A DNA stretch of 55,165 bases from Levilinea saccharolytica (lineage in GTDB: Bacteria; Chloroflexota; Anaerolineae; Anaerolineales; Anaerolineaceae), in assembly GCF_001306035.1 (NCBI RefSeq), contig NZ_LGCM01000043.1, positions 1 through 55,165 on the forward strand. The letters run 5' to 3'. This document shows positions 14,939-26,194 of the stretch, piece after piece (the stretch's first letter is position 1; each line of letters opens with the position of its first letter). Position numbers and translations under genes: made by a program. Below the pieces are notes generated by a model. That model saw only the letters and a program-made list of their open reading frames with translations. It made no database searches and had not been told where the DNA came from.

Positions 14939-15220
14939 TTAGCGCAGAGCGTCTTCCAGGGGTTCAGCCGCATACGGCAGTAAAGCAATGTGGCGAGCAC
15001 GCTTGATAGCCATGGCTAATTCGCGCTGGTGGCGAGCGCAGGTTCCGGTCTGGCGGCGGGGGCGAATTTTGCCCTCTTCCGTCACGTAACGGCGCAGCAG
15101 TTCAACACTCTTGTAGTCAATTTTGATGTTGGCGTCCGCGCAGAACTGGCAGATCTTCGGGCGCGCGACATAGCGGCGACCAGAAGGAGCTCCACCTTCC
15201 ATCATATTTTCATCACTCAT
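14939..15220 (-). CDS. rpsR: 30S ribosomal protein bS18
   Basis: 93 residues. After a short acidic start comes the conserved core [11 protein letters not shown], then [28 protein letters not shown] and [13 protein letters not shown]. The CQFC pair with a later Cys and His suggests a zinc-binding form of S18. S18 pairs with S6 on the 30S platform. It has a good ribosome binding site (AGGAG) and follows ssb by 12 bases in the common rpsF-ssb-rpsR operon. Confidence 0.96.
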
Positions 15221-15232
15221 GGTGTCCTTCTC

Positions 15233-15637
15233 CTAGAAGGGGAATTCATCTTCAATATCTTCGGTTTCCGAACTATCGCCGGCAGGGGCGTGATTTGAGT
15301 CGCGTCGGTCTCCCAAGATCATCATTTCACTGGCAACAATCTCGACGCTGGTATGTTTGACACCCTCGGAGTCGTCCCACCGGCGGGTCTGTAAACGCCC
15401 TTCGATATAGACTTGCTGACCTTTGGTGAGATACTGTTTGCAGATCTCGGCCAGGTTTCCCCAGGTGACCACATTAAACCATTCGGTCTCGGTATGGCGC
15501 TCGCCGTCCGCGGTGTTCCAGGTGCGGCTGGTGGCGACGGTGAAGGTGGTGACCGGTCGGCCGGAGGGCGTGTAGCGCATTTCTGGATCGCGCCCCAGGT
15601 GGCCAATGATCATGACTTTGTTCAATCCTCGACTCAT
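15233..15637 (-). CDS. ssb: Single-stranded DNA-binding protein
   Basis: 134 residues. An OB-fold domain (1-110) opens SRGLNKVMIIGHLGRDPEMRY and includes TEWFNVVTWGNLAE and GQQVYIEGRLQTRRW. A short disordered tail ends in the acidic tip DIEDEFPF, the docking site for repair and replication enzymes. The ATG at 15637 has AAGGAG six bases upstream; a TTG two codons earlier would have no room for a ribosome binding site. It lies between rpsF and rpsR. Its tail could recruit RecJ, whose gene is a few kilobases away in the next operon. Confidence 0.96.
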   Translation of the reverse strand: MSRGLNKVMIIGHLGRDPEMRYTPSGRPVTTFTVATSRTWNTADGERHTETEWFNVVTWGNLAEICKQYLTKGQQVYIEGRLQTRRWDDSEGVKHTSVEIVASEMMILGDRRDSNHAPAGDSSETEDIEDEFPF

Positions 15638-15684
15638 ACCCAACTCCTTGCCGTGCGACCTGACATGGCAGGAACGTCCGGCGA

Positions 15685-15969
15685 TTACTCTGTTACCGTG
15701 ATCATGTGTCGCAGCACAGGTTCCAAGAAGCGCAGGTTGCGATCGAGCTCGCTGGTGGCGCTGGGGGCCATTTCAGCTTCGATGAGCACAAAGTAACCTT
15801 CGCGCTGCTTGCGGATCGCGTAAGCCATCCGGCGCTTGCCCCAGCGATCCACTTTCACAACGCTGCCGCCCGGTTCGGTAATCCAACCGGAAACTTTCTC
15901 GATGGCAGTGTTCTGACTGGTTTCGTCCAGGTCAGCCTGCAAAATAAACATCACCTCATATTTACGCAT
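15685..15969 (-). CDS. rpsF: 30S ribosomal protein bS6
   Basis: 94 residues, normal length. MRKYEVMFILQADLDE opens the protein; the RNA-facing VDRWGKRRMAYAI and GYFVLIEAEM are diagnostic. The ATG at 15969 has AAAGGAGGATTCC upstream; the frame stays open further upstream but that part is the antisense shadow of the oxidoreductase gene. It is the first gene of rpsF-ssb-rpsR. A leader of about 95 nt with a hairpin may serve S6-S18 autoregulation. Confidence 0.96.
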   Translation of the reverse strand: MRKYEVMFILQADLDETSQNTAIEKVSGWITEPGGSVVKVDRWGKRRMAYAIRKQREGYFVLIEAEMAPSATSELDRNLRFLEPVLRHMITVTE

Positions 15970-17093: not shown

Positions 17094-19418
17094 CTACGTA
17101 CGGGCGGGTGAATGAGCGGTCAAAGCGGCAGGGGCCGCTTGCAGATAATAGGCGTGAAAGGCGGCCGTCTCCTGCAAAGCGGCGCGCAGGGCTGCTTCCA
17201 GGCGTTGGGCGAGGGCCGGGTCAGGATCGCCGCCCGAGGAAAAAACAACTTGATTTTCAGGCGAAATGTGCATGTGGATATGCCCGGCAGCAGCCAGCCA
17301 TTCCAGCCCCAGGCGCACGTTGTGCGCTGGGTGGGCCATGGCAGCGGCCAGGCGGGTCAGAGATTCGGTGGGCTCGGGGCGCTTGAGCACGGCACGCACC
17401 AGTCCGCTGAGGCGGGTCAGGAAGGCCTGAGGCTCGTCGAGGCCGGGGTCAATGCCGAGGAGGATCACGGTTTGGGGCTGAACGGCCTGCAGGGCGGCGT
17501 TGAGGTCGCCGCGGCTGGGCGGCAGGGTGGCGACGGTCAGCACAGGGGCGGGACGCCAGCCCAACCGGTCTACTGAGCCAGGCAGGCGCGGGGTGAGACC
17601 CTCAGCCCAAATGAGCGCATCGGGGGGCAGGGGGGCAGGCAGGTCTTCCCAGGCGCGCACAGCGCGCCAATCGGTGAGGGTGACGGCGGCCTGGGCCACC
17701 GGAATGGGCGCACCCTCGCGGTCGCGGTAGGCTACCCATTCGCCTTGAACGCGGCGCTGACCCTGGAAGGTGCTGGCGCGCAGGCGGTAGGCCAGGTCAA
17801 ATTCGCCCTGGGGGTAGGGCAGATCGGCGGACTGCCACCAGAGCATTTCCAGCAGCGTTTCGCTTTGGGGGTCGAGCACCTGCATACGGCGGTGTTCCTG
17901 ACCGCGGCCAATTCCCACCGGTTCGCCGCGCAGTTTGACCCCGCGGGCCACGAAGGTGAGGGGGGGATTGCCGGGGCCGAAGGGGGCCAGGCGCTCCAGG
18001 CCGTCGACCAGATCTAAGTCAATGCGGCCGAGGGGCAGCTCAGCGTCAATGAGTAATTGGCCGACGGGGGCTTGCTGGGCGGTTTGGCGGCGGACGGCGC
18101 GGGCCAGCTCGCGGCGAAAGGCGCCCAATTTCTCGGCAGGCAGGGCCAGCCCCGCAGCCATGGGGTGGCCGCCGTAGCCGAGGAGCAGGGATTCGGTTTC
18201 GGCGATGGCCTGGGTGATGTGCACGCCCTCCACCGAGCGGGCCGAGCCGCGCAGCGGGCCGTCAGGATGACCGGTGAGCATCAGCACAGGGCGCTGGTAC
18301 AGCTCCACCAGGCGGCTGGCGACGATGCCGATGACGCCGCCGGGCCAGAGGGGGTGGTGGAGGATGAGCACCGGGCTGCGCAGCAGGCCAGGATCCTGGC
18401 GGATCTGGTTTTGGGCGGCGGCGAAGACTTGATCACACAGCTGGCGGCGTTCCAGGTTATACCCTTCCAACTGGGCGGCAAAGACCGCGGTCTGGCTGGG
18501 GCTGGTGCTGAGCAGGAACTCGACGGCGGGGTTAGCGTCAGAGAGACGCCCCAGGGCGTTGAGGCGCGGAGCGAGGGTGAAGCTGATGTGTTCTTCCGTC
18601 AGCCAGGTTTCTTTGATGTTGGCGTTTTCCAGCATGGCCTGTACGGCCAGGCGAGGATTTTGGCGCAGTTGTTCCAGGCCGCGCCACACCAGGGGACGGT
18701 TTTCGCCGGTCAGCAGGGCCAAATCCGCCACGGTTCCCAAGGCGGCCAAATCCTGCCATTGGGCTTCTTCGCCGGGGCGGCCGAGGTGCGCGTAGAGGGC
18801 CTCGATGAATTTATAGGCGGTGCCGGCACCGCACAGCGGACGCAGGGGGTGGGCTTCGGGAAGGCGCTGGGGGTTGATGACCGCGGCGGCGGGGGGCAGG
18901 GTGGGGGGCAGGCCGTGATGATCGGTGATGATGGTGTCCACGCCTTGCTGGGCGGCGAACTCCACCGCGGCGTGGGCGGTAACGCCCGTGTCGCAGGTGA
19001 GCAGGAGCTGTACGCCCTGCTGCAAGAAGGCGCTGAGCGAGGCGACATGCACGCCGTGGGATTCCTTCTCGCGGATGGGGATGTAATAACAGACGTCGCT
19101 GCCCAGGCTGCGCAGTGCGCCCACCAGCAGGGCGGTGGAGGTCTGGCCGTCCACGTCAAAATCCCCCCACACGCCGATGCGTTGGCCGAGTTTCAAGGCG
19201 CGGGCGGTGCGCTCTACACCCAGGTCGAGATCGGGCAGATCAGAAGGGGAATGGGCAGGCTGACCGGCGGGGTTGAGCAGGGCCAGAATGTCAGCGGGAG
19301 CAGTCACCCCGCGGCGGGCGAGCACACAGGCCAGCAGATCGCTGCCGGCGGCCTCGCGGGCCTGCGGAGAAGGCTCTACCGCGGCGGGTTCGATCCATTC
19401 CAGGGCGGGCAGGCTCAA
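17094..19418 (-). CDS. recJ: Single-stranded-DNA-specific exonuclease RecJ
   Basis: 774 residues, longer than the 577 of the Escherichia coli enzyme, with extra C-terminal sequence. The DHH core has VWGDFDVDGQTSTALL, LLLTCDTGVTAH and the name-giving ITDHHGLPP. DHHA1 marks are GYGGHPMAAGLAL and the OB-fold entry LAPFGPGNPPLTF. RecJ degrades single-stranded DNA from the 5' end and works with helicases in recombination and mismatch repair. The start is TTG at 19418, overlapping the stop of the upstream nuclease gene (TTGA), so translation is coupled. Its place directly behind two helicase-fold genes and a nuclease suggests a joint role in end processing. Confidence 0.92.
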   Translation of the reverse strand: MSLPALEWIEPAAVEPSPQAREAAGSDLLACVLARRGVTAPADILALLNPAGQPAHSPSDLPDLDLGVERTARALKLGQRIGVWGDFDVDGQTSTALLVGALRSLGSDVCYYIPIREKESHGVHVASLSAFLQQGVQLLLTCDTGVTAHAAVEFAAQQGVDTIITDHHGLPPTLPPAAAVINPQRLPEAHPLRPLCGAGTAYKFIEALYAHLGRPGEEAQWQDLAALGTVADLALLTGENRPLVWRGLEQLRQNPRLAVQAMLENANIKETWLTEEHISFTLAPRLNALGRLSDANPAVEFLLSTSPSQTAVFAAQLEGYNLERRQLCDQVFAAAQNQIRQDPGLLRSPVLILHHPLWPGGVIGIVASRLVELYQRPVLMLTGHPDGPLRGSARSVEGVHITQAIAETESLLLGYGGHPMAAGLALPAEKLGAFRRELARAVRRQTAQQAPVGQLLIDAELPLGRIDLDLVDGLERLAPFGPGNPPLTFVARGVKLRGEPVGIGRGQEHRRMQVLDPQSETLLEMLWWQSADLPYPQGEFDLAYRLRASTFQGQRRVQGEWVAYRDREGAPIPVAQAAVTLTDWRAVRAWEDLPAPLPPDALIWAEGLTPRLPGSVDRLGWRPAPVLTVATLPPSRGDLNAALQAVQPQTVILLGIDPGLDEPQAFLTRLSGLVRAVLKRPEPTESLTRLAAAMAHPAHNVRLGLEWLAAAGHIHMHISPENQVVFSSGGDPDPALAQRLEAALRAALQETAAFHAYYLQAAPAALTAHSPART

Positions 19419-20251
19419 AATTCGATCTCCCCAATCTGGTCAAAATCCACCGAGAGCGGCGCGGCGCTGGGCTGCGGTTCTTCGGCGTCCAGCTCCTCTT
19501 CCCAGGGGCCGGCGCTGACCCCGCGGTCGCACAGGGAGCGGTACACGCAGAACTGGCAGGCGCGGGTATCCACCGTCATGGGGAACTGGCCGGGGGGGCG
19601 GGTTTGCAAGTCGGCGATGTGGACACGCAGGGCGGCCTGGTCGCGTTCAAAATCCTCGGCGGAGTAGCGCCAACGCTCCGGCTCGTTGGGAAAATCGGCG
19701 AACCAGTAGATCATTTCCACCTGATCGGGCTGAAGAGGCTGCCCGCCGTTGAGATGAGCCCCGGCCAACACCAGCAGCAGCGGATACAGCCGGCTTTGCC
19801 AGCGGCGGCGCAGCAGCTTGCCGGGGGTGCGGCGGCGGGAGGTCTTCCAATCCACGATCACAGCGCGCTGACCCGGCTCTACAGCCAGGATGTCGTACTT
19901 GGCGGTCAGTCGAATCCCAGCGAAGGGCGCGTTGAGGGTATATTCCGGCCAGCGGCGGGCGGGCAGGGCAGACAGAGGGTCGGCCTGCAAGAAATTCTGC
20001 CACCAGCGGGCCAGGGCCGCGTCTGCGGCGGGCACGGGCTGCTGATGGACGGGCAGTCCGGCGATCCATTGGTGAATGCGGTGGTGAAAGCGCTCACCTT
20101 GCAGCCGGTGGGCTTCCTGTTCCAGGACGGGTTCGCTTTCCAGAGCGGGCCATTGAACTTTCAGGAGGTAGCGCAGCTCAAAACGGCGCGGGCAGTCTTC
20201 GTAATCCTGCAGGCTGCTTTGCGACAGGGCAAATTCACGCGGAAGGGGCAT
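19415..20251 (-). CDS. PD-(D/E)XK nuclease with Fe-S cysteine pattern (AddB/Cas4-like nuclease domain)
   Basis: 278 residues. It has the layout of the AddB or Cas4 nuclease domain as a stand-alone protein. Cys20 (YEDCPRRFELRYLL) and the C-terminal Cys232, Cys235 and Cys241 (CX2CX5C) can hold a 4Fe-4S cluster. Catalytic residues are Asp120 (AKYDILAVE), Asp134 and Lys136 (IVDWKTS), with a following Gln-Tyr pair (QSRLYP). ATG at 20251 has GGAGG five bases upstream and overlaps the end of the UvrD-like gene by 17 bases; recJ overlaps its stop. Fusion of such a domain to helicases is normal in AddAB; here it is separate. A disordered acidic tail ends the protein. Confidence 0.85.
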   Translation of the reverse strand: MPLPREFALSQSSLQDYEDCPRRFELRYLLKVQWPALESEPVLEQEAHRLQGERFHHRIHQWIAGLPVHQQPVPAADAALARWWQNFLQADPLSALPARRWPEYTLNAPFAGIRLTAKYDILAVEPGQRAVIVDWKTSRRRTPGKLLRRRWQSRLYPLLLVLAGAHLNGGQPLQPDQVEMIYWFADFPNEPERWRYSAEDFERDQAALRVHIADLQTRPPGQFPMTVDTRACQFCVYRSLCDRGVSAGPWEEELDAEEPQPSAAPLSVDFDQIGEIEF

Positions 20252-22508
20252 GGGGGTCCTCCTCCATTTGGCTTCTCCAATAGGACTCCAGGGCGGCCAG
20301 GGGCAAGGCCTGCAGGCAGTTCTTGCGGCGGCCCGTGTTCCAAAAGATGAGCAGCTCGCGGCGAGCGCGGGTGATGCCCACGTAAAGCAGGCGCAGGCGT
20401 TCCCCGCTGATGCTGTAGCGGGCTTCCTGAGTGGCGGGGCCTTCTTCCATGAACAAGGCGGCCAGGTCGTTTTGAGCGACGGCATCCAGACGCTGTAGGG
20501 CTTCGGCTACCCAATTCAGCCGCGGCTCGGTGAAATAGGACTCGGACTGGTATTCGTCAAAGGACTGCGCCGAGGGGAAGTCGTAATTGTTCACGCCGGT
20601 CAGGTACACACGGTCCCATTCCAGGCCCTTGGCCTTGTGGTAGGTGGTGACGAGTACTTTGCCGGGGTACTGGTCGGGGTCAAAGCCGGTATCCTGCTCG
20701 CTCAGGCCCAGGAACTTCTGGCGCTGCATGGCGATATTTTGCAGGAAGGCGGCGTAGTCGCGCAAATCCCATTCGGGGTTAAAGCGCCCCTGGGCTTGCA
20801 GGGCCTGGGCAATTTTATGGGTGAGGGCCAGCTCTGCGGGGTCGCTGAACAGGTCCTGCGCCAGGGTGAGCACCAATTGATCCACCGGCAGGGAAACGGC
20901 CTGGGCCCAATGGGCCAGCCGCTCGCGGAAGAGGGCCAGGTCGGTGAGGACGGGAGGCGGGAGGTGAGGCTCCTGGTCATGGAGCCAATCGTCAAAGGCC
21001 GCGGGCTGAATGTACCGTTCTGGACGGTTACAGGCGGCAAGAGCTTTGGCGGCCGCCTGACGAATTTCGGGCGGGACGGGCAGGTTTTGGTTGAGTTCAG
21101 CTTGCTGGTCGAGAAATTTTCCCCAGGCGGTGTACAGGCTGACCAGCTTTTTGATGTTGGTTGGCTCCACCAAAAAGGTGAGGATGTGGTGGAGCAGCAC
21201 GGCGGTGTCGCGCGTAGCAGCGGAAGATTGCAGCAGTTCGACGCAGGGGATATCGGCCTGAACCAGATTTTGGAAGAATTCGAAGGCGCGGCTGTTGGAG
21301 GTGAACAGCACCGCCACGGTCTGATGGGGGTGATCCGCCAGCCATTTCTGCACGTTGTTTTGAATGCCGGTCAGTTCTTCGTCTGAGGTGCGCTTTCTTG
21401 AGATGTAAATATTGTTGGGCGTGTCCGGCGGGTTTGGCTGGGGATCGCCGGGAGGGGTGGGGAAGATGTAAGGAGGGGCGAGTGCCTCGCGCAGTTCAGG
21501 CACCGGGTGCTCCTCCAGTGTCCATTCGATGAGGTGGTTGGCCAGATCGAGGATGCGGCGAGCGGAGCGCCCTGAATTGGGCAGGGTGAGGGCGCGCACA
21601 TGGGGGTCACGCAGGAAATTGCGCAGATACTGGGGGTTGGCGGTGGTGAAAGTCTCGTAGATGGCCTGGTTGGGGTCGCCCACGCGCACCCAGTTGCCGT
21701 TCGGGCCGGAGAGCAGGCGCAGGATCTCTTCCTGCAAGCGGCTGGAATCCTGGGCTTCATCTTCCAGAATATAGGGCCAGCGGTGACGCAGGCGGGCGAG
21801 GAATTCGGGGTCGCGCTGAATGGCCTCCAGCGCCAGCTGGATGAGGTCGTCAAAATCCAGCTCGCCGCGCATGCGCAAGGCGCGCTCGAAATCGGCGTAC
21901 ATTTTGCAGCCCAGGTCCACCACCCAGGGGCGTTCGGGGAGGGCGCTGAGAGCCTCTTCAATTTGGGCGGGGCTGAGTTGGAGGTCTTTGGCTTTGCGGA
22001 TCCAGGCGCTGCCGACCTCCACGACCAGTTTATTCCAGCGCTCTTCCTGTTTAAAGCGCGGGGTAGAGGCGTCGGTCTCTGCGCGGGTCAGGCTCTGAAT
22101 GAGTTCAATGTTGGCGCGGATCCAGGCATTGGCGGAGCTCATCAGCAGGCGGCTGCGCTCGCGTTCTTCAATGACCCCGAACTGCGTGCCCAACCCCACC
22201 AGGTCGGGACGTTCGCGGATGATATCGTAGGCCAGGCCGTGCAGGGTGCGCACGCGGTAGCCCATGCCGGGGATAAGGTTGACGCCGCGCAGGAAGCTGG
22301 CGATGCGGCTGGAAAAGTTATCCACCGCGGAATTGACCAGGGTGACGATGAGAATCTCTTGCTCCTCGGCCAGGCGGTCTTCGGCGATGAGGCGGGCGGC
22401 CAGGGAGCTGAGGGTGTGGGTTTTGCCGCTGCCGGGGACGGCGGAAACGCCCATCCAGCCGGATTCGTAGTTGAGGACTTCGACTTGGGAGGGACGGGGG
22501 TTAAACAC
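20235..22508 (-). CDS. UvrD/PcrA-like superfamily 1 helicase
   Basis: 757 residues. The ATPase motifs are intact: Walker A AVPGSGKTHTL near the start, motif II ILEDEAQDSS, motif III VRVGDPNQAIYETF, motif V TYHKAKGLEWDRVYL and motif VI RLLYVGITRARREL. It should move along single-stranded DNA 3' to 5' at the cost of ATP. The start is taken as GTG at 22508 (VFNPRPSQVEVL), overlapping the previous gene by eight bases; an upstream in-frame ATG lies inside that gene and lacks a ribosome binding site. It is shorter than AddA and lacks a fused nuclease domain, which the next gene supplies. Likely the motor of a multi-subunit complex. Confidence 0.88.
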   Translation of the reverse strand: MFNPRPSQVEVLNYESGWMGVSAVPGSGKTHTLSSLAARLIAEDRLAEEQEILIVTLVNSAVDNFSSRIASFLRGVNLIPGMGYRVRTLHGLAYDIIRERPDLVGLGTQFGVIEERERSRLLMSSANAWIRANIELIQSLTRAETDASTPRFKQEERWNKLVVEVGSAWIRKAKDLQLSPAQIEEALSALPERPWVVDLGCKMYADFERALRMRGELDFDDLIQLALEAIQRDPEFLARLRHRWPYILEDEAQDSSRLQEEILRLLSGPNGNWVRVGDPNQAIYETFTTANPQYLRNFLRDPHVRALTLPNSGRSARRILDLANHLIEWTLEEHPVPELREALAPPYIFPTPPGDPQPNPPDTPNNIYISRKRTSDEELTGIQNNVQKWLADHPHQTVAVLFTSNSRAFEFFQNLVQADIPCVELLQSSAATRDTAVLLHHILTFLVEPTNIKKLVSLYTAWGKFLDQQAELNQNLPVPPEIRQAAAKALAACNRPERYIQPAAFDDWLHDQEPHLPPPVLTDLALFRERLAHWAQAVSLPVDQLVLTLAQDLFSDPAELALTHKIAQALQAQGRFNPEWDLRDYAAFLQNIAMQRQKFLGLSEQDTGFDPDQYPGKVLVTTYHKAKGLEWDRVYLTGVNNYDFPSAQSFDEYQSESYFTEPRLNWVAEALQRLDAVAQNDLAALFMEEGPATQEARYSISGERLRLLYVGITRARRELLIFWNTGRRKNCLQALPLAALESYWRSQMEEDPHAPSA

Positions 22509-24615
22509 GGCCGCCCCCTTCTGCTTCTGCCTGACGGCGGAAGATCCGCTGGAAGGCAAACAGCAGCGGCCCGCGCTGCTCGCTGCCCTGTTCGTTGATG
22601 GCGTTGACCGATAGGGCGATGCGTTCACGGCAGCGCAGAAGCAGGCCGTTGGTCAGGCGGGCGAGGGTTTGGCGGTTGTTGATCTCTTCGTCGGCGTCCG
22701 TCCATACCTTGCCGGGGGTCCAGCGGCGGCTGAGCACCAGGGGGTGGGTGAGGGGTTGGTAGAGGCGTTCAAACCAGCCGCGGCTGCCCACATCCACCCA
22801 GAACTGAAAGCGCACGGGGCGGTTCATCATCAGGAAGGTGAAGGCGGGGGCCAGCAAGACCGCGCCGGCCGAGTCATCCTGCCATTCCTGGGTGTACTGA
22901 GCGGCGATGAGCCCCTGGGCGACCATTTCCACATACTCCTGACCAACGCTGCGGCCGCTGTCCTGCAAGGCGGCCCCGGCGGCCAGGCGGAATTTGCGGA
23001 TGGATTCGATCAGGCGGGCGGTGACGGCGGCGTTGTCGAAGCTGTTGTGAAAGCCAAAGCCGGGCTGAGAGAGCACTTCGCCAAACAGGCGGCTGATGAA
23101 CACATCCAGTTCCACGGGCGGGCCGCCCAGGTAATTCATCAGCCAGCCGCGCAGATGCTCAAATCGGCGGCCGACCTCAAAGGTGATGCGCTCCTGCATT
23201 TCGGGCTGAATTTTTTCAAAGGAGGTAAAGCCCGGGCCGTTCCAGGCGTTTTTTCGAAAGGTGATGGAATAGAGCAGGTGGGCGCGGGGCAGATCCAGGC
23301 CTTCGACGGCCTGCTGCAGGGCGCTGCGCACTTCCAGTTCGCGCGGGGTCAGGCCCCAGGCGGGGTGGGCCAACACAGCCAGGGTGAGCAGACATTGGGT
23401 GGCGTTTTCGGCGCGCAGGGAGCGCGAAGGGCGGTGAGAGCGCACGGGGATGCCGGCGGCTTGCAGCCTTTGGGAGAGGGCAAAGCGCAGCCCATCGGAC
23501 AGGAAGGGAGCCAGGACGACGATTTCCTCCGGGGGCACATCCTGTTCCTGCACCAGCGCGCGAATCTGCTCGGCGATCCAATCAGCGGATTGAGGCATGA
23601 AGCGGCTGAAATTGAACTCCAGGGCTTCAGGGATGAGAGGTGAGGCGCTGAAATCCTGCTGGCGCACCGAGGCTTCCAGGGTGGCGCGCAGGGCCTCGAC
23701 GGCAGGGGAAACCACCCAGGAGTCGTTGAAGAAGATTTCCTGATCGCAGGCGGGGTTCAACTGCTCGGCGCTGAGGGGATCGGCCCCCAGAAAGGCGCGG
23801 TATCCGCCGCCGCGGTCATAGACCAGGAGGGCGGACTCAAATTCACCCAGCCAACTGCTGACGATGTCGTGCACCACGGGGGCATCCTCTTCCACATTTT
23901 CATAGAAGAGGTGGCGGTATTGGGCGCTGAGGTGGGCGCGCACGGCGGGATGGGGCCAGAGCAGTTTTTGGAAGATCTCCATCTGGAGGGAGAAGTCCAA
24001 TAGATTGTTTTCCAGGCAGTATTGGCGAAAACGCAGGGCACATTCCTGGGCCTGTTCGTAGAGGTGCAGCTCGGCGGGTTTGCCCAGCGAGGCGCTTTTC
24101 AGTCGCTCGGCGATGGTGTTCACCTCAAAGCCGACCAGGGCAGCCTTGTTGAGATTATCCAGCACCTGACTGTACAGGCGGTTGGTATCCAGACGGATGG
24201 AATCGAAGAAATTCTCTTCCAGGAGCGGTTGAATGACATGCGCCAGGTAATATTGGGCGGTTTCCAGGGTGAGAAAGGTCGGCGGCAGCTCGGGGTGGGA
24301 AAAGCCGGCGGATTCGGCCACATAGGGCCAGAACAGGTCGATATTCCGCTGGGCGAGACCGCCCAGGGTGACGATGGTGACGGGGCTGCCGGAGGGCAAG
24401 GCTGGGTCGCGGACGGCGGTGGTGTAGGGCTGGGCCAGAGTGCGCAGGGGGGCCAGCACCAGGATGGAATCGCCGGGGATGCCGTTTTCCAGGGCGGCGC
24501 GCAGACGAGCCACGGCGGCGGTGGTTTTGCCCGTTCCCGGCGGGCCTTCCAGCCAGATTCGCTGTGAAAACGGCTGATCTACCAGGGCCTGCTGGGCGGG
24601 GCTAAGGTTGAACAT
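22501..24615 (-). CDS. UvrD-like helicase-fold protein with degenerate ATPase motifs
   Basis: 704 residues. Walker A is present (GPPGTGKTT, 24-32). The place of motif II, after LDFSLQMEIF and YRHLFY, reads ENVEED instead of DEFQD. The motif III position reads YDRGGGYRAFLGADP, lacking the Gln. Later parts still resemble the 2A/2B domains (EIVVLAPFLSDGLRFALSQRLQAAGIPV), but motif VI is not recognisable. This is the pattern of an inactive partner helicase, as in AddB or RecC, without a fused nuclease. It begins 22 bases after the exonuclease gene and overlaps the active helicase gene. I infer a DNA-binding or scanning subunit; binding of ATP may persist. Confidence 0.7.
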   Translation of the reverse strand: MFNLSPAQQALVDQPFSQRIWLEGPPGTGKTTAAVARLRAALENGIPGDSILVLAPLRTLAQPYTTAVRDPALPSGSPVTIVTLGGLAQRNIDLFWPYVAESAGFSHPELPPTFLTLETAQYYLAHVIQPLLEENFFDSIRLDTNRLYSQVLDNLNKAALVGFEVNTIAERLKSASLGKPAELHLYEQAQECALRFRQYCLENNLLDFSLQMEIFQKLLWPHPAVRAHLSAQYRHLFYENVEEDAPVVHDIVSSWLGEFESALLVYDRGGGYRAFLGADPLSAEQLNPACDQEIFFNDSWVVSPAVEALRATLEASVRQQDFSASPLIPEALEFNFSRFMPQSADWIAEQIRALVQEQDVPPEEIVVLAPFLSDGLRFALSQRLQAAGIPVRSHRPSRSLRAENATQCLLTLAVLAHPAWGLTPRELEVRSALQQAVEGLDLPRAHLLYSITFRKNAWNGPGFTSFEKIQPEMQERITFEVGRRFEHLRGWLMNYLGGPPVELDVFISRLFGEVLSQPGFGFHNSFDNAAVTARLIESIRKFRLAAGAALQDSGRSVGQEYVEMVAQGLIAAQYTQEWQDDSAGAVLLAPAFTFLMMNRPVRFQFWVDVGSRGWFERLYQPLTHPLVLSRRWTPGKVWTDADEEINNRQTLARLTNGLLLRCRERIALSVNAINEQGSEQRGPLLFAFQRIFRRQAEAEGGGRV

Positions 24616-24637
24616 GCGCGGTCACCTTTGGGTGCGG

Positions 24638-25222
24638 TTACACATTGGCTTCTTGGGCGGCGATATACTGCAGCAGAGCGCGGGTCAGACGGGTGTCATC
24701 CTGGGCGCGGTGCGAATTGGGGATGGAGATGCCCGCAGAACGGCCGGCTTCTTCCAACGAGAAAAAACGGTAGGTGCGCCGGCGCGGGTCAAAGATGCCG
24801 CGGAATTGGGCGTAGAGCTTCATGACGCAGATGCTCTTGAAGCGCTCTTGCCAGGGCATACGGTGTACCTGATGGGACTGCTGCATGAGGCGCAGATCGT
24901 ATTCTTCGTTGTAAATGGCAATCACGCGCCGATCGAGGTGCGCGCGCACGCTGGGCCACACCTCCGCCCAGGTGGGGGCGGACTTCACCATTTCGTCGGT
25001 GATGTGGTGCACGCGGGATGAATCCGGCGGGATGGGGCGGGTGGGGCGCACCAAGCTTTCAAAAAGCAAGGTGTCGTCGTGATCCACGATAGAAATCTCC
25101 ACAATTTCGGCCTTGCTGTCCAGGCCGGTGGTTTCGGTGTCCAGATAGACGGGCTTGGCTTGCAGCACTTTCTGGGCAATTTGAACGGCTTGCAGGCTGG
25201 GGTTTAAAATGGGTGCGGGCAT
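24638..25222 (-). CDS. DnaQ-like DEDDh 3'-5' exonuclease
   Basis: 194 residues, single-domain. Exo I is YLDTETTGLD (Asp28, Glu30), followed by EISIVDHDD. Exo II is IYNEEYDLRLM (Asp109), and Exo III is SHRAQDDTRLT (His171, Asp176). All five catalytic residues of the DEDDh class are present. It matches the epsilon/RNase T/ExoX group; the substrate may be DNA or RNA. The ATG at 25222 is chosen since the longer frame has no ribosome binding site. It precedes the helicase-nuclease genes by 22 bases. In this context a role in DNA end trimming is more likely than proofreading, since no polymerase gene is near. Confidence 0.82.
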   Translation of the reverse strand: MPAPILNPSLQAVQIAQKVLQAKPVYLDTETTGLDSKAEIVEISIVDHDDTLLFESLVRPTRPIPPDSSRVHHITDEMVKSAPTWAEVWPSVRAHLDRRVIAIYNEEYDLRLMQQSHQVHRMPWQERFKSICVMKLYAQFRGIFDPRRRTYRFFSLEEAGRSAGISIPNSHRAQDDTRLTRALLQYIAAQEANV

Positions 25223-25241: not shown

Positions 25242-26108
25242 TCAGGGTAAATTCCAGTAGGCGATCTCATCCAGATTGACGCTGAGGCTGCCGGAGCTGC
25301 CCGCCACGTACAGGCCGTAATAACCGGCGTCGCTCAAACCCGCGCCGTTGACCTCGGTGATGAGTTTGTCGTTAATGTAGAGGGTGATGCGGTCGTTTTC
25401 CACCTTGACCCCCAGGCGGTTGGTTTGACCGGTGCCGCCCAGAACGGCCGGGTCGCCGCTGGAGGAAGCCAGGGAGGTGGTGCCGGTGGAATCCCAGCGC
25501 GACAGGCTGTATCCGCCGCCGCAGGTGATGCCGAAGTAGAAGCCGTGGCCGGAGTCGTAATTGGGAGCGCGGAAGACCAGGCCGTAACCGTCGCTGACCC
25601 CGCAGGTGTTGGCGTTGAAACTGCCTTCGAGGTAGAAATTCTTGATAGCCGGAGGACGCAGCCGCCAGGAACGCCAGCCGTTGGTCATTTTGCTGGCTGC
25701 GGTGAGGAAGCCGCCGCTGACGCGGAAGCTTGAGTAGTCATCCTCGTAGGGCGATTTGAGGCCGAAACCGCCGCCGCCGTCGAGGGTGTCTTTGCCAGTG
25801 GGTGCGCCCAGGGCCGCTTTCCAATCCTGCGGGGTGGGTGTGGGGGGCGGGGTGAGGGTGGGGATGGGGGTCTGGGTGGGTTCCGGCGTGGCGCTGGGCA
25901 GCATCTCCACCGGGGTGGCCGTGAGGGCCAGGGTGGGCAGGATGACGGCCGCGGAGGGCTGGGCAGCGAGAGTTTCAGCGACGGCTGTGGCCACGGGGGC
26001 GTTTTCGGTGGGGGCTGGGGCGGCGGTTTGGCCGGGCAAGTTGCAAGCCGCGGCGGCCAGAGCCAGAACCGCGGCGCCCAAGGTCAGTTTCCAATGTGTT
26101 TTTGTCAT
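25242..26108 (-). CDS. Lipoprotein with Thr-Pro linker and concanavalin-like C-terminal domain
   Basis: 288 residues. A signal peptide ends in the lipobox AAAC, followed by a 75-residue disordered part with TPEPTQTP and TPPPTPTP repeats. The C-terminal 190 residues are a beta-rich globular domain: FRVSGGFL, FYLEGSFNANTC, YGLVFRAPN, FYFGITCGG, NRLGVKVENDRITLYINDKLI, YYGLYV. That layout is typical of LamG or family-16-like jelly rolls that bind polysaccharide or protein. Two cysteines may form a disulfide. It is first in the operon leading to the repair genes, 19 bases before the exonuclease, but nothing ties it to them. ATG has TAGGAGGTAAGAG upstream. Confidence 0.75.
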   Translation of the reverse strand: MTKTHWKLTLGAAVLALAAAACNLPGQTAAPAPTENAPVATAVAETLAAQPSAAVILPTLALTATPVEMLPSATPEPTQTPIPTLTPPPTPTPQDWKAALGAPTGKDTLDGGGGFGLKSPYEDDYSSFRVSGGFLTAASKMTNGWRSWRLRPPAIKNFYLEGSFNANTCGVSDGYGLVFRAPNYDSGHGFYFGITCGGGYSLSRWDSTGTTSLASSSGDPAVLGGTGQTNRLGVKVENDRITLYINDKLITEVNGAGLSDAGYYGLYVAGSSGSLSVNLDEIAYWNLP

Positions 26109-26165: not shown

Positions 26166-26194
26166 ATTATAGCCCAGGAAGGGAGCATTGCCAA
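26166..26194 (-). promoter_or_regulatory. Promoter of the lipoprotein/repair operon
   Basis: On the minus strand TTGGCA (26194-26189), 17-base spacer, TATAAT (26171-26166). It is about 60 bases before the lipoprotein start. Its -35 shares five bases with the -35 of the divergent promoter. Confidence 0.7.

Follow-up and report, generated by a model that had tools for sequence, protein, structure and literature searches.

A pseudo-helicase, a UvrD-like motor and an Fe-S-type nuclease as separate gene products in Levilinea saccharolytica: a candidate split helicase-nuclease of the Anaerolineae

Most species resect DNA ends with AddAB, RecBCD or AdnAB, one of which is encoded in 88% of the bacterial genomes covered by a published survey (PMC6452273). 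According to the same survey, of 2019, AdnAB is found only in Actinobacteria (PMC6452273). Here we describe a minus-strand run of five genes in a 55,165-nt stretch of Levilinea saccharolytica DNA (Chloroflexota, class Anaerolineae; RefSeq assembly GCF_001306035.1, contig NZ_LGCM01000043.1), the whole of which is called the window below. In order of transcription, the genes encode a DEDDh exonuclease, a helicase-fold protein (HLP), a UvrD-like motor (UVR), a PDDEXK nuclease of the iron-sulfur (Fe-S) type (NUC) and RecJ. We lean towards seeing HLP, UVR and NUC as one DNA-end-processing helicase-nuclease built from separate polypeptides. In the best reading, this split enzyme would work like AddAB or AdnAB while meeting the definition of neither.

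Like AddAB of the Bacillus subtilis type, the locus combines a motor with an inactivated fold of the UvrD type and with a PDDEXK nuclease that has Fe-S cysteines. In AddB, residues 2-696 align with HLP and residues 780-1148 with NUC, and the AddB proteins of the class also keep a GKT P-loop and have VDGFD at motif II. As in an AddB-type subunit, HLP has kept the P-loop and lost the motif II glutamate, a likeness that is not specific to AddB. The helicase-like domain of AddB has been described as a Chi scanner (PMC4824097). In contrast to AddB, in which an inactivated helicase fold is fused to the Fe-S nuclease, HLP and NUC are products of two genes, unfused in the loci L036-L175. In contrast to AddA, a motor of helicase superfamily 1A (SF1A) fused to a C-terminal PDDEXK nuclease, UVR ends at 757 aa and gave UvrD-family matches only in a Pfam scan, with no nuclease domain; the set has one nuclease, not two. 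In addition, UVR lies outside the AddA branch, and AddB coexists with the system in a part of its carriers (see below).

In RecBCD the nuclease is fused to RecB, whereas NUC is separate, and the RecC family (PF04257) has 0 matches in the L. saccharolytica genome. A shared feature is the inactivated helicase domain that RecC contains (PMC4824097). The likeness to AdnAB lies in the folds: the nuclease domain of AdnA is the nearest fold to NUC, AdnB is near the fold of HLP, and, apart from UvrD, PcrA and Rep, UVR has its best profile match in AdnB. However, each AdnAB subunit is described as motor and nuclease in one chain (PMC13309787), and HLP and UVR, unlike NUC, lack a nuclease domain. The nearest precedent is a predicted operon of unfused UvrD and Cas4-like (pfam12705) genes, reported from several bacteria, mostly Clostridiales, with a suggested role in repair (PMC5704561). 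Like our locus, it pairs a helicase of the UvrD type with a Cas4-like nuclease that stands alone, but it belongs to other taxa, and the passages describing it, on which this comparison rests, do not mention a pseudo-helicase partner (PMC5704561). Among the listed titles of open-licence PMC papers, including lists for Chloroflexi, Chloroflexota and Anaerolineae of at most 20 titles each, none describes the set of HLP, UVR and NUC.

Properties of the three proteins

HLP has the fold of a helicase and lacks part of its active site. Its sequence ENVEED aligns with motif II of UVR and with VDGFD of AddB, and in two partly overlapping sets of homologues, a diverse one (28 sequences) and a nearer one (45 sequences), the motif II glutamate is replaced by asparagine (N240) without exception. 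The neighboring E242 and E243 are invariant in both sets, as are G29 and K30 of the P-loop. Compared with the SF1A helicases UvrD and PcrA, HLP lacks the catalytic glutamate of motif II, and motifs III and V are unrecognisable, since no GDxxQ or TxHxxKG occurs in the homologue alignment. The NCBIfam search gave three matches at E<=1, all far under their cut-offs. The AlphaFold2 model (predicted local distance difference test score, pLDDT, 89.4; predicted template modelling score, pTM, 0.87) has a whole SF1A fold. It was built with 44 of 80 loci, from which L155 and L171 had been dropped for an in-frame stop. In these two loci the stop lies inside the matched HLP range and may reflect a pseudogene, a frameshift or an assembly error.

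The nearest folds belong to the UvrD family, with Z 29.8 (582 residues aligned, root-mean-square deviation, rmsd, 9.8) and Z 29.3 (453 residues, rmsd 3.5), followed by AdnB (Z 25.9, 616 residues, rmsd 5.0) and residues 2-696 of AddB (Z 22.6, 613 residues, rmsd 6.3).

UVR and NUC have kept their active sites. K29, D250, E251, Q281, K627 and R714 of UVR are invariant in 23/23 homologues, and the SF1A motifs are present. NUC has the GxxxH, D, DxK and QxxxY motifs of the PDDEXK_1/RecB family, together with four cysteines. H56, E103, D120, K136, Q152 and Y156 are invariant in two sets of homologues (25/25 and 42/42), and D134 is found in 25/25 of the one and in at least 90% of the 42 of the other. 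The cysteines C20, C232, C235 and C241 are likewise invariant in both sets and suggest an Fe-S cluster. The NUC model (pLDDT 87.0) is closest to the nuclease domain of AdnA (Z 18.2, 222 residues, rmsd 2.8), followed by the AddB nuclease (AddB 780-1148; Z 15.4, 235 residues, rmsd 3.7), Argonaute-associated ACE1 nucleases (Z 15.3) and RecE (Z 14.3).

These results bear on an initial annotation of the window, which had read ENVEED as a replacement of the Walker B motif in one helicase-fold protein, the second helicase as intact and the AddB-type cysteines as lying on a separate 278-residue protein. All three points hold, and the first extends to every aligned homologue. The same annotation spoke of a decayed helicase. 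Because N240, E242, E243 and the P-loop are invariant across homologues, HLP is a conserved pseudo-enzyme rather than a gene decaying in one genome.

NUC ends in a tail that resembles the C-terminal tip of single-stranded DNA-binding protein (SSB), a docking site for many partners (PMC10164576). The commonest form of the end motif is D-F-E-Q-I-A/G-E-I-x-F/Y. Among 72 distinct NUC open reading frames (ORFs; E<=1e-30), the last residue is aromatic in 64, compared with 1/124 for HLP, 1/80 for UVR and 63/1383 gene-like background ORFs. The SSB-tip-like pattern, which was written after the tails had been seen, is present in 54/72 NUC proteins and in 18/30 SSBs of relatives. In the background it occurs in 8/2902 ORFs of all kinds (a first background, in which many are not genes) and, when the count was repeated on 1383 non-overlapping distinct gene-like ORFs, in 6/1383. 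The linker before the tail is acidic, with 11.1 acidic residues among the last 40 against a background of 3.9. The likeness to SSB is partial, since most SSBs end in E-F/Y-P-F and most NUC proteins in E-I-x-F, and the NUC motif is longer. The low pLDDT of the tail in the monomer model is as expected of a docking peptide, and the tail is perhaps a docking site for a partner, which could equally be HLP or UVR. SSB-domain matches number four in the L. saccharolytica genome and eight in that of its nearest relative.

Gene order and co-occurrence

A scan of named genomes confirmed 534 relatives of HLP, of which the best 80 were kept as nearest loci; their carriers include the named strains Anaerolinea thermolimosa IMO-1, Longilinea arvoryzae KOME-1 and Ornatilinea apprima P3M-1. 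Loci with HLP, UVR, NUC and RecJ in this order and on the same strand make up 15 of the 40 taken from other families of the class and 33 of the 80 nearest loci; in the latter count some loci have intervening genes, and many of the remaining contigs end early. Given this recurrence, the arrangement is not due to chance. Over 117 distinct loci, direct same-strand neighbors were found in 64/106 assessable cases for HLP and UVR, 54/75 for UVR and NUC and 39/60 for NUC and RecJ. An ssb match was present in 6/120 HLP loci, within flanks of limited length.

The exonuclease gene directly precedes that of HLP in 6/92 assessable loci. It lies near HLP in 9/80 nearest loci, preceding 8 of the 33 ordered ones, and no exonuclease match was found near HLP in any of the 40 loci of other families. 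The exonuclease is therefore an addition in the near relatives of the window, and a five-gene unit was rejected. The conserved unit consists of three genes, HLP, UVR and NUC, and RecJ is a frequent neighbor but not a fixed part. The initial annotation had treated all five genes as one set, which would fail if the gene order were not conserved in relatives. The order is conserved, and of the proposed set the unit of HLP, UVR and NUC stands, whereas the exonuclease drops out and RecJ is only frequent. One locus of the same four-gene type (L174) comes from a record titled Candidatus Fraserbacteria, with an HLP 50% identical to that of the window; it may represent transfer or misbinning, perhaps a misbinned contig.

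The co-occurrence of the three genes was examined in 150 Anaerolineae genomes. HLP was counted in 80 of them, after four of 84 matches (E 4.8e-4 to 9.8e-4) had been dropped, UVR in 80 and NUC, at E<=1e-20, in 72. HLP and UVR occur together in 78 genomes, HLP and NUC in 70, and all three in 68 of the 83 genomes that have any. They also co-occur when unlinked, as in one genome with the genes at three distant places of one contig (G067) and another with the genes on three contigs (G130). Since Fisher tests on these counts ignore relatedness, weight rests on contrasts within families. Among 36 multi-member families, HLP is present in all members of 15, absent from all members of 13 and mixed in 8, whereas shuffling gave a mean of 27.4 mixed families and a minimum of 20; its presence follows families. 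In seven of the eight mixed families (f14, f20, f25, f27, f37, f43 and f46) the trio is jointly present or absent, and in the eighth (f23) a single 73% complete genome (G109) lacks HLP alone. In a scan of the phylum, HLP matches were found in 31/301 genomes and none was labelled as lying outside the class, with the best three candidates per genome scored and the number of other-class genomes among the 301 not given.

The annotation had also named a regular AddAB, RecBCD or AdnAB elsewhere in the genome as a finding that would speak against its proposal. In the L. saccharolytica genome, which is 97.65% complete, no AddB match was found when the five best of 12 candidates were scored, and RecC is missing from the matches as noted above, so that the proposal survives this comparison. 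Only three proteins have a UvrD_N domain: besides HLP and UVR there is one whose nearest NCBIfam family is pcrA (802 bits, cut-off 911). A PDDEXK_1 domain is present in only two, NUC and a 176-aa Cas4 (NCBIfam cas4 77 bits, cut-off 65) encoded on another contig (C56; locus L002, 1366-1896, plus strand). RecO is present. The stand-alone Cas4 has, by eye, an N-terminal hydrophobic stretch and is possibly membrane-anchored.

Descent, candidate mechanism and alternative readings

In a FastTree phylogeny of 61 motor domains, constructed by this method only and without AdnAB or RecBCD sequences, HLP groups with AddB (Shimodaira-Hasegawa-like support 0.998), AddA groups with PcrA-like helicases (0.99), and UVR forms a branch of its own. 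Nine sequences were entered in the tree as PcrA on the basis of length and profile score; the three of them that were checked had NCBIfam pcrA as best match, under the cut-off. If the tree is right, the pseudo-helicase would be AddB-like by descent and the motor would not be an AddA. Membership could not be read from the NCBIfam cut-offs. UVR reaches 71.3 bits against addA_Gpos (cut-off 707.65), but the AddA proteins of the class itself (427.3 and 293.6 bits) and its AddB proteins (158.8, 159.7 and 135.8 bits against 903.7) also stay under the cut-offs, which are therefore uninformative on HLP and UVR; their use as proof of non-membership was withdrawn.

The reading of HLP, UVR and NUC as one helicase-nuclease draws on the co-occurrence of the trio, including where the genes are unlinked, on gene order, the folds of HLP and NUC, the motor tree, the family-wise presence and the presence of RecO. 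In such an enzyme, UVR would be the motor that unwinds DNA from the break, probably in the 3'-5' direction. HLP would be a non-motor scaffold or scanner, holding ATP but hardly burning it; by analogy with AddB and RecC (PMC4824097), it would grip the end of the duplex and steer the strand that is unwound. NUC, whose RecB-family active site is complete and whose cysteines are AddB/AdnA-like, would cut this strand, and its SSB-tip-like tail may dock the nuclease to a partner. RecJ, presumably by hand-over, would degrade the 5' strand, and RecFOR would load RecA on the 3' tail.

Several results weigh against this reading. AddB is found in 28/80 HLP carriers and in 14/70 non-carriers, and in ten of the 80 genomes with HLP, among them four of the six members of one family (f5), NUC was not found at the threshold used. 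No fused form of HLP, UVR or NUC was found among the loci L036-L175. In profile comparisons by hhalign, HLP matches AddB at 2.7e-17 and UVR at 2.3e-13, and the control, UVR with AddB, is as strong (1.4e-19), so that the likeness of HLP to AddB is not special. This comparison cannot decide descent, and was rejected as proof that HLP and AddB are orthologs. In a profile search of the PDB, the best match of HLP is UvrD (9.5e-11), with AddB at 5.2e-05, and the grouping of HLP with AddB in the tree may reflect long-branch attraction.

The distribution of AddB bears on the role of the system in the class. AddB was counted in 42 genomes of the class (best E <=6.6e-74) out of 71 with E<=1e-10; the 29 genomes left out have E values from 9.0e-22 upwards, and the AddB profile also picks up PcrA-like helicases. 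A replacement of AddAB by mutual exclusion was rejected, because the trend between carriers and non-carriers is weakly opposite. AddB is mixed in 18/36 families (shuffled mean 23.4, minimum 16), a patchier distribution within families than that of HLP. With AddB in 28 carriers, the split system is not simply a stand-in for AddAB across the class. Given these 28 genomes and the 56/150 that have neither HLP nor AddB, the initial annotation went too far in suggesting that it could be this lineage's main system of resection. Meanwhile, 52/80 carriers have no AddB match (RecBCD and AdnAB were sought in the L. saccharolytica genome only), which makes HLP, UVR and NUC a specific candidate for the missing resection step in the class.

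The three genes might instead have arisen by fission of an ordinary AddAB or AdnAB, HLP and NUC being the halves of an AddB or AdnA, and UVR an AddA or AdnB minus its nuclease. The branch of HLP with AddB, the structural proximity of NUC to the AdnA and AddB nuclease domains, the way in which HLP and NUC span AddB 2-696 and 780-1148, respectively, and the PDB profile search, in which AdnB is the top match of UVR once UvrD, PcrA and Rep are set aside (1.8e-31), all agree with this. However, UVR stands apart from AddA, which joins the PcrA-like helicases in the tree, AddB coexists in 28/80 carriers, the profile likeness is not specific, and HLP has no match to the NCBIfam AddB models at E<=1, while addB_Gpos picks up three AddBs of the class at E<=1.2e-39. 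We consider fission unlikely. A neighborhood of independent repair and replication enzymes that form no complex, in which UVR and NUC would work at forks or gaps and HLP would have a regulatory role, seems to us quite unlikely. In its favor, several families, f2 and f36 among them, have the genes scattered, RecJ and the exonuclease are inconstant neighbors, and NUC is missing at the threshold from the ten HLP genomes mentioned; against this stand the 78 of 80 genomes in which HLP and UVR are found together, unlinked cases included, and the joint presence or absence of the trio in seven of eight mixed families.

A helicase-nuclease directed against phages, Gabija-like rather than a repair enzyme, is very improbable. 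PADLOC models of GajB match UVR at 2.3e-42 and HLP weakly (6e-07), and its Argonaute-associated Cas4-like and Cas4 models match NUC weakly (1.5e-05 and weaker), but GajB is itself called a UvrD helicase in PADLOC, and the match is therefore generic. In addition, the presence of the genes follows families, and their neighbors are RecJ and, in the few loci mentioned above, ssb (no systematic search for defence islands was made).

A bolder extension of the split helicase-nuclease, which we regard as possible but doubtful, would make it a fourth end-resection architecture beside RecBCD, AddAB and AdnAB. It would consist of a motor, a nucleotide-holding pseudo-helicase and an exchangeable Fe-S nuclease whose SSB-tip-like tail docks in the SSB-tip pockets of RecJ or RecO, and strand cutting, digestion of the other strand and mediator loading would be coupled by SSB mimicry.

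The split helicase-nuclease suggests that fusion of the motor, the pseudo-helicase and the nuclease is not obligatory. With each part a protein of its own, the role of the pseudo-helicase, which is hard to isolate in AddB or RecC, could be tested here by omitting one protein, and the SSB-like tail of NUC offers a direct and cheap binding test.

Locus layout and neighboring genes

The features of the locus are listed in Table 1. The exonuclease and HLP genes are separated by 22 nt, and the overlaps between HLP and UVR, UVR and NUC, and NUC and RecJ are 8, 17 and 4 nt, respectively. The coordinates thus agree with the five same-strand genes, with a 22-base gap or overlaps, of the initial annotation, and family scans bear out its assignments. 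The whole run extends from 17094 to 25222. An alternative, longer in-frame start of the exonuclease ORF lies at 25270, and RecJ scores 456.6 bits against the NCBIfam recJ cut-off of 396.9. The promoter match in the table is one of 6 promoter-like sites scoring >=9 in the region, where 2.0 were expected.

Table 1. Coordinates of the features of the five-gene locus in the window
Feature	Positions	Strand	Evidence
DEDDh 3'-5' exonuclease, 194 aa	24638-25222	-	RNase_T 4.7e-19; PADLOC DEDDh 1.8e-31; neighbor, not conserved member
Pseudo-helicase HLP, 704 aa	22501-24615	-	UvrD_N 3.5e-07 (weak); AlphaFold2 model, PDB fold matches, conservation
P-loop GPPGTGKT, HLP residues 24-31	24523-24546	-	G29 and K30 invariant in 28/28 and 45/45
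ENVEED, HLP residues 239-244, at the DExQD position	23884-23901	-	N240, E242 and E243 invariant in 28/28 and 45/45
UvrD-like motor UVR, 757 aa, GTG start	20235-22508	-	UvrD_N 4.3e-43; UvrD_C 2.6e-23
Fe-S-type PDDEXK nuclease NUC, 278 aa, own polypeptide	19415-20251	-	PDDEXK_1 (PF12705) 6.2e-27
SSB-tip-like C-terminal tail of NUC, SVDFDQIGEIEF	19418-19453	-	Short C-terminal pattern, 54/72 homologues
RecJ 5'-3' exonuclease, 774 aa, TTG start overlapping the NUC stop	17094-19418	-	NCBIfam recJ 9.2e-137
Best sigma-70-like promoter match, TTGGCA-17-TATAAT, upstream of the gene run	26166-26194	-	Consensus match only, 11/12

Upstream, the exonuclease gene is adjoined by a gene for a 288-aa protein (25242-26108, minus strand), which may lead the transcript. 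The protein had no match in the Pfam scan; judged by eye, its N terminus is signal-like and another part of it is rich in Pro and Thr. Shortly past recJ, on the same strand, lie the genes for ribosomal protein S6, SSB and ribosomal protein S18 (14939-15969, minus strand), with ssb 1.45 kb beyond recJ. This S6-ssb-S18 cluster is accompanied by a promoter-like site at 16097-16070.

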